Assembly (NCBI RefSeq): GCF_000331305.1 | Contig: NZ_KB217478.1 | Span: 7,528,317-7,592,316 of the forward strand | Direction of reading: 5' to 3' | From: Calothrix sp. PCC 7103 | Lineage (GTDB): Bacteria > Cyanobacteriota > Cyanobacteriia > Cyanobacteriales > Nostocaceae | Length of the DNA stretch: 64,000 nt | Shown here: one piece after another, positions 334 to 4,280 of the stretch | Numbering within the stretch: position 1 is the stretch's first letter | Layout of the letters: every line of letters begins with the position of its first letter | Position numbers and translations under genes: made by a program | Notes under the pieces: generated by a model | Told to the model about the DNA's origin: nothing | The model's database searches: none | What the model saw: only the letters and a program-made list of their open reading frames with translations

Positions 334-1647
334 TTAAGTTGTGTACTCGGCATTAATTTTCACGTAGTCGTAACTCAAGTCACAACCCCAAGCGATACCG
401 GAACCGTGTCCGTTACCAATGCTGACTTTAATTATCACTGGGTTATCCACTCGTTGCGGCGCCACGGTACTACGGTCAACTGTAAGGTCGTTGCTCATGT
501 TGGTTGCTGTAGAATCGCTCTTTATACTTGAATTCGCAGCAATGTGTTTTAAATAATTACTTGCACCCGAACGCTCAAAGGGTAATGGTTGCCCATGTTC
601 CATTAGTAAAAAATCACCCAGTTGAATTCGCAAGTTCTCTTGTTCAAATACAACTCCCGCGCGTCCTGCTGCTGCTGCTATTCTTCCCCAATTTGGGTCA
701 TGCCCAAATATTGCAGATTTTACTAGCGATGAACCTACTATTGTTTTTGCTACTTGACGTGCTGCTGCATCATCCGGTGCCCCTTCTACTTGTACTTCTA
801 TCAAGCAAGTTGCACCCTCTCCATCACGAGCAATACATTTAGCTAAATGCTGACACACTGCCGTTAACATCGCTTCTAACTTTTCTGCCTCGGCGCCCAT
901 TTCTGTAATTGCAGGAGTTCGCGATTCACCATTAGCAAGGGCAATTAAACTATCATTGGTGCTAGTATCACCATCTACAGTTATGGCATTGAAACTTTTG
1001 TCCGCAGCACGCGAAAGCATTCGCTGCCATAAATGGGGTGAAACAGCCGCATCACACGTTACAAATGCCAGTAATGTTGCCATGTTGGGATGAATCATCC
1101 CTGAACCTTTAGCTATTCCACCTATTCGTACTGTCCTATCTCCAATAGTTGTCTCCAATGCAATTGTTTTTGGCACCAAATCAGTAGTTATAATTGCTCC
1201 TGCTGCCTCATCAGAACCAGTTCCCGAAAGTGCCGCAATAACTTTAGGAATTCCGCTTCGCATCGCATCCATTTTGATACGTTGCCCTATTACACCCGTT
1301 GATGCCAATAATATTGATTCTGAAGAAATATTTAATGCACTAGCTAAAATTTCTGCACTTTCGAGTGCATCGCGCATTCCTTGTTCTCCTGTTGCTGCAT
1401 TCGCTTGTCCCGCATTACAAAGAACCGCACGAGTTATTTGTTTACTTTGCAACCGCTCACGACAATAATCTACACATGCTGCCTTTACGTGACTCGTTGT
1501 AAATACTCCTGCTGCTATCGCATCTACATCCGATACTATCAACGCTAAATCTGGCAACCCCGAAGGTTTTAACCCAGCTTTTATTCCCGCTGCCCGATAT
1601 CCTCTAGGCGCCGTGACTCCACCATCTATTTTATGCCAGTCTGCCAT
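334..1647 (-). CDS. argJ: Bifunctional ornithine acetyltransferase / N-acetylglutamate synthase ArgJ
   Basis: ArgJ transfers the acetyl group from N-acetylornithine to glutamate in the cyclic arginine pathway. The 437-residue protein starts MADWHKIDGGVTAPRGYRAA and contains the self-cleavage motif GSGMIHPNMATLLAF, with the scissile Ala190-Thr191 bond; Thr191 becomes the N-terminal nucleophile of the beta chain. The C-terminus (GIAWGCDLSYDYVKINAEYTT) is typical of cyanobacterial ArgJ. Odd point: between the SNYLKHIAA and NPVIIKVSIGNGHG segments lies a low-complexity stretch of about 30 residues rich in Ser, Thr, Asp and Asn, which I do not remember from other ArgJ proteins. Upstream is the small-RNA array. 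Confidence 0.96.
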   Translation of the reverse strand: MADWHKIDGGVTAPRGYRAAGIKAGLKPSGLPDLALIVSDVDAIAAGVFTTSHVKAACVDYCRERLQSKQITRAVLCNAGQANAATGEQGMRDALESAEILASALNISSESILLASTGVIGQRIKMDAMRSGIPKVIAALSGTGSDEAAGAIITTDLVPKTIALETTIGDRTVRIGGIAKGSGMIHPNMATLLAFVTCDAAVSPHLWQRMLSRAADKSFNAITVDGDTSTNDSLIALANGESRTPAITEMGAEAEKLEAMLTAVCQHLAKCIARDGEGATCLIEVQVEGAPDDAAARQVAKTIVGSSLVKSAIFGHDPNWGRIAAAAGRAGVVFEQENLRIQLGDFLLMEHGQPLPFERSGASNYLKHIAANSSIKSDSTATNMSNDLTVDRSTVAPQRVDNPVIIKVSIGNGHGSGIAWGCDLSYDYVKINAEYTT

Positions 1648-1765
1648 GACCTTACCCGCAATTATGACTGACTGGCGATTATATCAATTATAGTGTCACC
1701 ACTTAATGGTATTTTGTTAAATAACCAGCAACTATATATGAATGTTAGTAAAAATGCTTTATGGG

Positions 1766-1817
1766 AAAAAAAGAGAGAGCTACTTCAGCAGCTCTCCAGA
1801 TCATCAGGGTGCATCTG
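1766..1817 (-). ncRNA. Putative small RNA, array copy 1
   Basis: On the minus strand a -10-like TATTAT (1824-1829) precedes a transcript predicted to begin near 1817, read through GATGCACCCTGATGATC, and end in a 7-bp hairpin (1775-1781 with 1790-1796) followed by seven U (1766-1772). Size is about 52 nt. The layout matches NsiR1-type heterocyst small RNAs of Nostocales, which also occur as tandem direct repeats, but identity was not tested by search. Start site is inferred. Confidence 0.5.
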
Positions 1818-1928
1818 AATAACATAATACACTATTTTGGGGATGCCGTGCATTACCCCCCATTTTATTTTGAAAAATTTTATTAATTTCTGTGTAATTG
1901 TTATCTAGTATACAACAGAAAAACAGAC

Positions 1929-1980
1929 AAAAAAACAGAGAGCCACTTGCGTAACTCTCCGAATCATCAGGGTGCATCTA
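1929..1980 (-). ncRNA. Putative small RNA, array copy 2
   Basis: Minus-strand unit: -10-like TATTAT at 1987-1992, conserved AGATGCACCCTGATGATTC, terminator hairpin GAGAG/CTCTC (1938-1942 with 1955-1959), then a U-run whose template A's lie at 1929-1935. Predicted length is about 52 nt. Conserved sequence upstream of the -10 (plus-strand GGGTGATACCCC) may be part of the promoter. Confidence 0.5.
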
Positions 1981-2112
1981 CTTAACATAATATACCATAT
2001 TTGGGATGATGGGTGATACCCCTTATTTAAATTTTATATGAAGTTAATATGACAAATCCTTAAACTTAAAATCTATTGGCTAGGTGGTTCTTTAGTACTA
2101 ATAAATGCAAAT

Positions 2113-2160
2113 AAAAAAGAGAGCCACTTACGTAACTCTCCGAATCATCAGGGTGCATCT
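2113..2160 (-). ncRNA. Putative small RNA, array copy 3
   Basis: Minus-strand unit with -10-like TAGTAT near 2168-2173, conserved 5' core, hairpin GAGAG/CTCTC (2119-2123 with 2136-2140) and six U (2113-2118). Predicted length is about 48 nt. Nearly identical in its core to copy 4. Confidence 0.5.
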
Positions 2161-2333
2161 ACTTAACATACTATATCATATTTGGGATGAGGTGCAATAC
2201 CCCCTGTGAGTATTTTTTCTGAGCAATGCGTCAAGAAAATTTTATAGGTGGCTTGAATCAGTGATACTACGCATCCAGGCGCCGAATCTATCTAAAATTG
2301 GGATTATTTGGGGGATTATATTTATAGATAGAC

Positions 2334-2384
2334 AAAAAAAGGAGAGCTATTTACATAACTCTCCGAATCATCAGGGTGCATCTA
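2334..2384 (-). ncRNA. Putative small RNA, array copy 4
   Basis: Minus-strand unit with AT-rich -10 region (2389-2402), conserved 5' core, hairpin GGAGAG/CTCTCC (2341-2346 with 2359-2364) and seven U (2334-2340). Predicted length is about 51 nt. Core and flanks are closest to copy 3. Confidence 0.5.
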
Positions 2385-2510
2385 CTTAACATACTATATC
2401 ATATTTGGGATGAGGTGCAATACCCCCTATAAGTATTTTTTCGGAATAATGCGTCAAGAAAATTTTGTAGGCGCCGTTATGCAGGAAATTACGTAAGTAC
2501 GTAAGTAGAC

Positions 2511-2564
2511 AAAAAAAAAGGGAGAGCTATTTACATAACTCTCCGGATTCATCAGGGTGCATCT
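2511..2564 (-). ncRNA. Putative small RNA, array copy 5
   Basis: Minus-strand unit with TATTGT near 2574-2579 and an upstream TATAAT at 2584-2589, conserved 5' core (one extra T in the ATTCATCAGG block), hairpin GGGAGAG/CTCTCC (2520-2526 with 2539-2544) and nine U (2511-2519), the strongest terminator of the five. Predicted length is about 54 nt. Confidence 0.5.
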
Positions 2565-2659
2565 ACTTAGCGCACAATATCATTATAGGTATGAGGTGCG
2601 CTACCCCCTAGTTGAGATTTTTTTGTAAATTTTTGATGAAGAAATATTTACGGCGCCGT

Positions 2660-4135
2660 TTAAGCGTTTAGCTTTTTCTCGACCAATTCGTTGGTGAGAC
2701 GGGGTTCAGCGAGTTTGTTGGTTTTTTTGAGGACTTGTCCGACGAAGAAACCTTTGAGATTGACGTTACCACCTTTGTACTTTTCGTATTCTTTAGGGTT
2801 AGCGGCGATAACTTCGTCGATAATAGATTCGAGAGTAGCAGGGTCGCTAATGAGTTCTTTGCCTGCGAAAGCTTTTTCGGGGGTTACACCGTTGAGTAAA
2901 TCGGTTAACTTTTCTTTTGCTATGGCGTTGCTAATTTTACCACTCTCAATGCGCGTAATAACATCCGCTAGGTTTTGCGGAGTTAAACCAATTTCGGTGA
3001 TAGCGAGCTTTTGTTTGTTGAGATAAGCTGCGATATCTTGTGTAATCCAGTTTGCCGCAGCCTTGGCACTGGCGCCAGTAGCAATAACTGTTTCAAAATA
3101 TTCAGAAACAGTACGCTCTTCGGTAAGAACACGCGCATCATATGGAGAAAGTCCCAAATCAGTTTCGTAGCGATGACGCTTTTGAGCGGGGAGTTCGGGT
3201 AACTCGCTTTTCCAAGCATCTAACTGTTCGCTGCTAACTTCGATTGGTCCTAAATCAGGTTCAGGAAAGTAACGGTAATCGCTAGAACCTTCCTTTTTAC
3301 GCATACTAATAGTACGTTGTGAACCTTCTTCCCACAAGCGGGTTTCTTGGATAATTGGTTCACCAGCTTCGACAGCAGCTATTTGTCGTTCAATTTCATG
3401 CTCGATTGCTTTTTGTATTGCGCTGAACGAGTTCATGTTTTTGATTTCGACTTTAGTGCCAAATTCTTTTTGCCCAACTGGACGAACAGATATATTAACA
3501 TCACAGCGTAGCGAACCTTCTTGCATGTTGCCGTCGCTAACACCGAGATAGCGCATAATTCGACGTAATTCTTGCGCGTATTCAGCAGCTTCTTGTCCAG
3601 AGCGTAAGTCAGGTTCGGATACTATTTCCACTAATGGAACACCTGCACGGTTGTAATCTACAAGTGAGTAAGTCGAACCAGATAACCTATCACTACCTGC
3701 GTGAACTAATTTGCCTGCATCTTCTTCCATGTGCAGACGAGTCACACCAATTTTTTTACGAACAGGATTACCATCTTTATCGATTAACTCGATTTCTAAC
3801 CAACCATGTTCAGCAATAGGTAAATCGTACTGTGATATTTGATAATTTTTAGGTAAATCAGGATAAAAGTACTGTTTACGGTCAAACTTACTATATTTTG
3901 CAATTTGGCAATTGAGCGCTAACCCTGCTTTGACAGCATATTCTAAAACTTTTTGGTTGAGTACAGGTAACACTCCAGGTAAACCCATACAAACCGGGTC
4001 GATATTTGTATTGGGGTCGGCGCCGAACGCTGTGGAACTATCAGAGAATATTTTAGTGTTGGTACTTAGCTGACAGTGGGTTTCCAGCCCAATAATCGCC
4101 TCGTACTCTGTTTTAACAGGAGTAGCAGTAGTCAT
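2660..4135 (-). CDS. gatB: Aspartyl/glutamyl-tRNA(Asn/Gln) amidotransferase subunit B
   Basis: GatB is the tRNA- and kinase-bearing subunit of GatCAB, which converts Glu-tRNA(Gln) and Asp-tRNA(Asn) to the amidated forms; cyanobacteria need it because they lack GlnRS. I place the start at MTTATPVKTEYEAIIGLETH (4135), giving the usual 491 residues; an upstream in-frame ATG at 4276 would add 47 residues that do not look like the family. Family motifs are EAIIGLETHCQL, GLPGVLPVLN, KFDRKQYFYPDLPKNYQISQ, LHMEEDAGK and the C-terminal YqeY-like tail (NPKEYEKYKGGNVNLKGFFVGQVLK). It is transcribed away from a 430-base spacer and toward the small-RNA array. Confidence 0.97.
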   Translation of the reverse strand: MTTATPVKTEYEAIIGLETHCQLSTNTKIFSDSSTAFGADPNTNIDPVCMGLPGVLPVLNQKVLEYAVKAGLALNCQIAKYSKFDRKQYFYPDLPKNYQISQYDLPIAEHGWLEIELIDKDGNPVRKKIGVTRLHMEEDAGKLVHAGSDRLSGSTYSLVDYNRAGVPLVEIVSEPDLRSGQEAAEYAQELRRIMRYLGVSDGNMQEGSLRCDVNISVRPVGQKEFGTKVEIKNMNSFSAIQKAIEHEIERQIAAVEAGEPIIQETRLWEEGSQRTISMRKKEGSSDYRYFPEPDLGPIEVSSEQLDAWKSELPELPAQKRHRYETDLGLSPYDARVLTEERTVSEYFETVIATGASAKAAANWITQDIAAYLNKQKLAITEIGLTPQNLADVITRIESGKISNAIAKEKLTDLLNGVTPEKAFAGKELISDPATLESIIDEVIAANPKEYEKYKGGNVNLKGFFVGQVLKKTNKLAEPRLTNELVEKKLNA

Positions 4136-4280
4136 AATATTATGGTATCTCGCTTTACTTCTCAGCCTATTATTGTAGAAGGGTAAGGGGAAAAGGGGAA
4201 AGGGGTTTACCCGTAGGTTGGGTGAGGGCTTCTGCGTAACCCAACCTTGTATCTTAGAAGAAGTAGACTGCCCCAAAAGT

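Follow-up and report, generated by a model that had tools for sequence, protein, structure and literature searches.

Copies of the heterocyst RNA NsiR1 number 12 upstream of hetF in Nostoc sp. PCC 7120, according to the accessible part of its description (PMC9045159), and those DIF1 promoters that have been tested are HetZ-dependent in the text available (PMC7377430). A second short RNA, Yfr1, carries a fixed, presumably unpaired C-rich motif combined with a hairpin and was found in 89 of 89 cyanobacterial genomes, as reported in the accessible text (PMC4734099). The RNA described here resembles Yfr1 in this build but has another motif and follows HetR, and at the curated Rfam threshold no match to Yfr1 was obtained in the window (the whole stretch of 64,000 nucleotides from Calothrix sp. 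PCC 7103 that was analysed). HetR sites published for Anabaena 7120 include GAGGGGTCTAACCCCTC (hetP), with GGGnnnnnCCC required, and the direct HetR regulon of this strain has the same binding consensus as boxes of the window type; Table 1 of that study comprises protein genes, neither an sRNA nor the argJ/gatB locus was seen in the portion available, and the role of HetR in cyanobacteria without heterocysts is raised there as a question (PMC4192349). Neither an sRNA at argJ-gatB nor an sRNA with a HetR box was recognised in the accessible literature (including PMC6133370, PMC4649674, PMC3610870 and PMC10287535), the scope of which ends before supplements such as Table S3 of PMC4734099; a prior listing is possible.

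The array lies between gatB (2660..4276; Pfam GatB_N and GatB_Yqey; ORF as listed, its true start may be further in) and argJ (334..1647; Pfam ArgJ), and all three are on the minus strand. The first-pass annotation had proposed five direct repeats flanked by these genes. Both genes were upheld by Pfam, and a repeat search recovered an 80-nt family with five members (spacings 163, 181, 223 and 181) together with a 35-nt hairpin family, also with five members. As claimed, every unit combines a -10-like hexamer (by eye TATTGT, TATAGT twice, TATATT and TGTATT) with the core, a hairpin and a U-run. The 15-nt core AGATGCACCCTGATG is located at 1802-1816, 1965-1979, 2146-2160, 2369-2383 and 2550-2564, and the predicted RNA starts on the minus strand, at or near AGATGC, are 1816, 1979, 2160, 2383 and 2564. 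Numbered from the gatB side, the putative sRNA genes are unit 1 (2511..2564; core, hairpin arms GGAGAGTTAT/ATAGCTCTCC and U-run), unit 2 (2334..2383), unit 3 (2113..2160), unit 4 (1929..1979) and the argJ-proximal unit 5 (1766..1816), all on the minus strand and with approximate starts. The -10 element of unit 2 (TATAGT, 2393..2398, minus strand) is immediately preceded by TGA, giving an extended -10. When folded, the units reached minimum free energies of -14.9 to -19.9 kcal/mol, better than shuffled sequences (z -2.2 to -4.5). Short GGCGCC-centred repeats flank the array (1597-1615, 2460-2478 and 2642-2660).

Beyond what had been noted before, an inverted repeat was found at -42 of the units, as well as seed-sharing units elsewhere in the genome. 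In the window, the HetR box is exact only in unit 4 (2011..2021, minus strand; GGGTATCACCC), whereas the HetR-box-like sites of unit 1 (2596..2606; GGGTAGCGCAC; placed at -42 by comparison), unit 2 (2415..2425; GGGTATTGCAC), unit 3 (2192..2202; GGGTATTGCAC) and unit 5 (1848..1858; GGGTAATGCAC), likewise on the minus strand, each have one mismatch to GGGN5CCC (CAC for CCC). The array probably consists of five genes for trans-acting sRNAs of about 50 nt, each under its own HetR-controlled promoter. HetR would set the transcription of the units, most likely as an activator, since the site at -42 to -32 replaces a -35 element. The 5' end of the RNA, AGAUGCACCCUGAUGAU, would pair with target mRNAs, the variable hairpin and the U-run would serve as a terminator, and the array copies would add dose. 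The RNA would be a sister of NsiR1 that shares its seed and has a direct HetR box in place of DIF1 at the same promoter position.

The promoters were compared across 307 non-redundant seed-sharing units (loci L001-L237), collected by RNA sequence and not by promoter. Among the 183 distinct units of L040-L149, the inverted repeat GGGGTnTnACCCCTCA occupies -43 to -28, 5' of an extended -10 with the consensus TGnTATAnT at -18 to -10, and this promoter consensus agrees with the published HetR site, nearly letter for letter with that of hetP. Units with the window-type hairpin carry GGGN5CCC with at most one mismatch near -42 in 233 of 244 cases (exact in 142), and none of the 244 has DIF1 (TCCGGA near -35, at most one mismatch). 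The 63 units with other hairpins divide into 51 with DIF1, seven with a HetR box, one with both and four with neither, and one or the other motif is present in 292 of the 307 units. HetR boxes start at exactly -42 in 177 of 241 cases, all unit types included, with their centre at about -37; DIF1 motifs start mostly at -39 and are centred at about -36.5. Judged by these motifs, one seed is combined with two alternative putative promoter switches at about the same position. An interval 80 nt further upstream, used as a control, contained HetR-like sequences in 18, DIF1-like sequences in 16 and both in four of the 244 window-type units, and in the other-hairpin units HetR-like sequences in three of 63 and DIF1-like ones in 21 of 63, the latter probably contributed by neighbouring array copies. 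The 11 boxless window-type units are those of G052, of three genomes of genus g68 (no HetR) and of locus L137 (a Chroococcidiopsidaceae assembly counted apart from HetR status), plus six Nostocaceae-type loci with two mismatches. Exact boxes precede eight of 32 units in the window's genus compared with 134 of 212 elsewhere, a difference that may reflect weaker or graded control by HetR in this genus.

A strict form of the consensus, GGGGTNNNRCCCCTCA, gave 49 matches in 24 genomes compared with eight for the reversed pattern. It was matched in 13 of 15 HetR-bearing genomes (three of which, all of the window's family, were counted without a HetR search), and eight other genomes lacking HetR contained one match together. 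In the window's genome there is a single strict site (L264), located 5' of an ORF whose beginning resembles those of the ORFs in L265 and L266; at these two loci the site comes after a gene for an ABC transporter, an arrangement that recalls the hetC-hetP site. Outside the window's family, strict sites also precede serine/threonine kinase genes by about 400-550 nt (L260, L269 and L284), two of these kinases having a 4-Cys prefix domain. In another genome (G039; L273, 344-1315 and 1500), an sRNA with a HetR box is divergent from an AmiA-like amidase gene.

The genome of the window encodes HetR. Co-occurrence was assessed in 80 genomes outside the window's family, taken from a draw of 386 and made up of 55 of the 62 members of the order (seven redundant genomes of family f8 dropped), all 24 members of the class outside family f36 and one f36 genome; the sample excluded the remaining f36 genomes and everything beyond the class. 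A match to HetR (PF03574) was obtained in 37 of the 80. At E<1e-7, a threshold chosen within a gap in E-values from 2.8e-8 to 7.3e-5, the RNA model R1 found the RNA in 35 of 37 genomes with HetR and five of 43 without (Fisher p=1e-14 by genome; 14 of 14 against three of 14 by family, p=3e-5; shared ancestry is not fully corrected in either). At E 0.01, the counts were 37 of 37 and 16 of 43 (p=2e-10). The two HetR-bearing genomes that gave no strong window-type match nevertheless contain seed-sharing units, in G036 an array of nine copies whose promoters are DIF1-like, in G359 three units with exact GGGN5CCC boxes. Of the 35 genomes, 30 were read (all but G114, G163, G227, G248 and G338), and in each of them one unit or more is preceded by an exact box. 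In 25 of these, its position is -42 (23 genomes), -41 (G161) or -40 (G396); the other five are G044, G067, G082, G109 and G329. Ten matches to the window-type pattern are spread over several contigs of G396 (L191).

Five carriers lack a detectable HetR. The box is absent from G052 and from three genomes of genus g68, which amount to two lineages only, and it is kept in G043; among lineages that retain the RNA without HetR, the box was lost in two of the three sampled. In g68 (L214, L215 and L217), the core and the hairpin are kept and a different promoter is present, and the RNA is possibly a HetR-independent descendant. No HetR was matched in G043 by two Pfam models, possibly owing to a gap in its draft assembly of 320 contigs; ten matches to GGGGTNNNRCCCCTCA occur in this genome (L209, L224, L225, L262, L275 and L283), with three for the reversed pattern.

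On account of their sequence and this co-occurrence, the array promoters look like part of the direct HetR regulon. It is unlikely that the box is bound instead by another regulator that co-occurs with HetR, in which case the RNA would be real but no direct HetR target. That reading is favoured by the boxes of G043 and by the fact that HetR binding at the box is a prediction. The argJ gene of Anabaena 7120, which we take to be alr2073, is absent under this tag from the text of the corresponding ChIP study. The locus is likewise missing, as judged by the tag, from its table of 26 HetR-bound regions, which in the form accessible also missed hetZ and patS (PMC4192349). A different regulator is opposed, however, by a consensus nearly identical to the HetR site of hetP and by the finding that both the RNA and its box follow HetR.

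The first-pass annotation had likened the array to NsiR1. This held for the layout, with tandem RNAs of about 50-60 nt, individual promoters, a terminator hairpin and a shared 5' segment, and it was extended to sequence, since the 5' core AGATGCACCCTGAT is the same as in the hetF-adjacent array of the same genome; it did not hold for the locus (gatB-argJ), the hairpin (GGAGAG/CTCTCC) or the promoter (a HetR box for DIF1). In the Rfam check that had been suggested, units 1 to 4 matched NsiR1 (RF02399) at 34.8, 32.0, 30.4 and 33.2 bits, all below the gathering score of 39 bits, and unit 5 gave no match at E<=1. At the curated threshold, Rfam returned no match in the whole window, so that NsiR1 is visible only by permissive search. 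The window-type loci of 12 relatives reached at most 35.9 bits, two of them having no match at E<=0.1. Two or three weak permissive-search matches to unrelated Rfam families (E 0.02-0.8) were taken as chance.

The hetF-adjacent array of the window's genome comprises seven units plus an eighth located 197 nt upstream of hetF (HetF encoded at L031, 6789-9332; NCBIfam 1412.6 bits, cutoff 1200). All eight copies exceed the NsiR1 cutoff (48.2-67.9 bits) and have TCCGGA-type (DIF1) promoters, and on these sequence grounds the array is identified as NsiR1. A search of this genome (11.6 Mb) for the 15-mer core with at most two mismatches gave 34 matches compared with nine for the reversed pattern; outside the window, a count by eye added 17 sRNA-like units that share this start and have different hairpins, seven of them in the hetF-adjacent array and ten elsewhere. 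Among six other loci searched in this genome, L007, L008, L015 and L019 scored above the NsiR1 cutoff and L006 and L014 below it. The window array shares the 5' core AGATGCACCCTRAT with the hetF array but is situated between gatB and argJ and not upstream of hetF, and because its Rfam scores are below the cutoff it is regarded as a sister of NsiR1, not as a member by the curated test.

NsiR1 scored above the cutoff also outside the window's family. Family f2 has arrays of ten (G145), nine (G036) and seven (G374) copies with DIF1-like promoters; single copies were found in f10 (two, in G044) and in f31, which belongs to another order (one, in G087). From their placement outside the window's family, these five genomes are inferred to form no heterocysts. 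The copy of G087 is divergent beside hetF, like the array of the window's genome, and the array of G145 adjoins the same S8-DUF5942 protease (62% identity). Another widely conserved seed-sharing sRNA, with the core AGATGCACCCTGG, a DIF1 promoter (at most one mismatch) and a terminator, was observed at 19 of the 30 loci from a search with VCAGGGTGCATCT (L019 at 1501, corresponding to C7:1963339 of the window's genome, L405, L408-L411, L413-L415, L417-L424, L430, L432 and L434); the L019 copy, which diverges from a gene for a tetrapyrrole methylase, is above the NsiR1 cutoff.

That the window array is simply a translocated NsiR1 under the same heterocyst-specific control would account for the common 5' core, the tandem layout and the sub-threshold Rfam matches. 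We nevertheless judge it quite unlikely, given that every window-type RNA searched stays below 39 bits, that DIF1 occurs in none of the 244 window-type units but in 52 of the 63 with other hairpins, and that the window type has its own synteny and coexists with the other type within one genome.

The identical 5' core had been proposed to be the seed, and in agreement with this, 84 matches collected with up to three mismatches permitted anywhere across 25 bases contain 19 mismatches in positions 1-15 and 98 in positions 16-25, with all 15 core bases intact in 71. The hairpin arms, said to change and yet stay paired, covary across 50 units chosen for diversity: 96% of cells are paired, five of nine pairs are changed on both sides, and the covariation score is 0.303, whereas shuffles averaged 0.219 and none of 500 equalled it (although relatedness alone can beat shuffles), and slid versions reached at most 0.158. 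As expected of an sRNA that base-pairs in trans, the conserved 5' seed lies outside the hairpin, part of it being sometimes paired in single-unit folds, and the RNA most likely acts in trans through this seed.

The pattern AGATGCACCCTGATGATTCGGAGAG (at most three mismatches) was present in 41 of 60 relatives and AGATGCACCCTGATGATCTGGAGAG in 53 of the 386 genomes drawn across the phylum, with no match for either reversed control. A second search, with R1, of all 12 genomes of the window's family that were negative in these two draws gave matches at E<1e-11 in 11, and the remaining one (G112) has NsiR1-type copies only. Outside Nostocales, Symplocastrum, Microseira and Coleofasciculus are among the carriers; all three presumably form no heterocysts. 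In viral contigs, 90 stretches contain the 15-mer, and none of 88 scanned sites combines a HetR or DIF1 promoter with a terminator. Relatives' loci contain one to six copies. Both argJ and gatB, argJ alone, gatB alone or neither was found at 53, 29, 17 and 11 of the 110 loci L040-L149, at 18, four, seven and seven of the 36 loci L150-L185, and at four, one, 15 and ten of the 30 loci outside the window's family, counts that are affected by the early ends of many loci. The order gatB, sRNA, argJ on one strand is constant, with gatB upstream in 114 of 114 and argJ downstream in 109 of 109 matches found.

This shared strand, kept wherever the genes were found, could point to a cis element, namely a series of terminators or attenuators between gatB and argJ that lacks a trans function. 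Such a role is very unlikely in view of the units' own promoters and conserved 5' core and of copies with the seed and HetR boxes at loci in which both genes went undetected. The pairing energies predicted for the seed also speak against it, as they average -8.15 kcal/mol at argJ starts (n=30) compared with -8.04 at other starts (n=351) and are weaker at gatB starts (-5.16 kcal/mol, n=36); cis pairing with either start was rejected as no better than with other starts. Equally improbable is an array that mainly titrates HetR through decoy sites, with the RNA secondary: the several tandem HetR-type sites, some of them degenerate, would suit it, but the seed and the hairpin are conserved and four genomes lacking HetR keep the RNA without the box. 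A leaderless short ORF (ATG CAC CCT GAT, MHPD...) or an argJ leader peptide is barely conceivable, for although an ATG lies three bases into the core of all five window units, the third codon positions 8, 11 and 14 changed only 1, 0 and 0 times in the 84 matches, the frame shifts directly after the core between units, and argJ was not found at 25 of 30 distant copies (loci up to 3 kb).

Targets of the putative trans-acting RNA were sought with three anti-seed patterns, none of which revealed a recurrent conserved target at a start codon. BTCAGGGTGCAT gave 15 matches in seven genomes of the window's genus compared with four for the reversed pattern. At five of 15 loci in this genus (L240, L245, L249, L252 and L253), an 11-base seed complement was observed near codon 140 of a DUF1688 gene, a weak target candidate that, being located in a coding region, may reflect protein conservation. 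ATCATCAGGGTGD was matched 49 times in 34 genomes and its reverse six times, an excess that is not explained; at 30 loci no gene recurred on the sense strand, many matches were antisense to an ORF, and one (L391) is placed 17 nt upstream of a start codon, in a single genome. VCAGGGTGCATCT, with 37 matches in 34 genomes compared with one reversed, led at 19 of 30 loci to the other DIF1-driven sRNA. An apparent target in the hetF 5'UTR (-17.7 kcal/mol; 9 of 300 shuffles as good) was discarded as the eighth NsiR1 copy itself.

What had appeared as a local curiosity is a deeply conserved sRNA array and a candidate for an ancestral output of HetR. In each of the 14 families with HetR that were sampled beyond that of the window, HetR is accompanied by a short RNA with a fixed seed, and NsiR1, known as a heterocyst RNA, becomes one branch of a wider family that is apparently older than heterocysts. 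With confidence about evenly divided, we propose that the seed-RNA family is an ancient HetR output: before heterocysts arose, HetR may have driven sRNAs with the seed AGAUGCACCCUGAU through direct boxes at the gatB locus and through the DIF1 pathway at the hetF locus, and heterocyst formers may have inherited both, NsiR1 being only the best-known branch. If this is true, the HetR of non-heterocystous filaments would gain a concrete, testable regulatory target.
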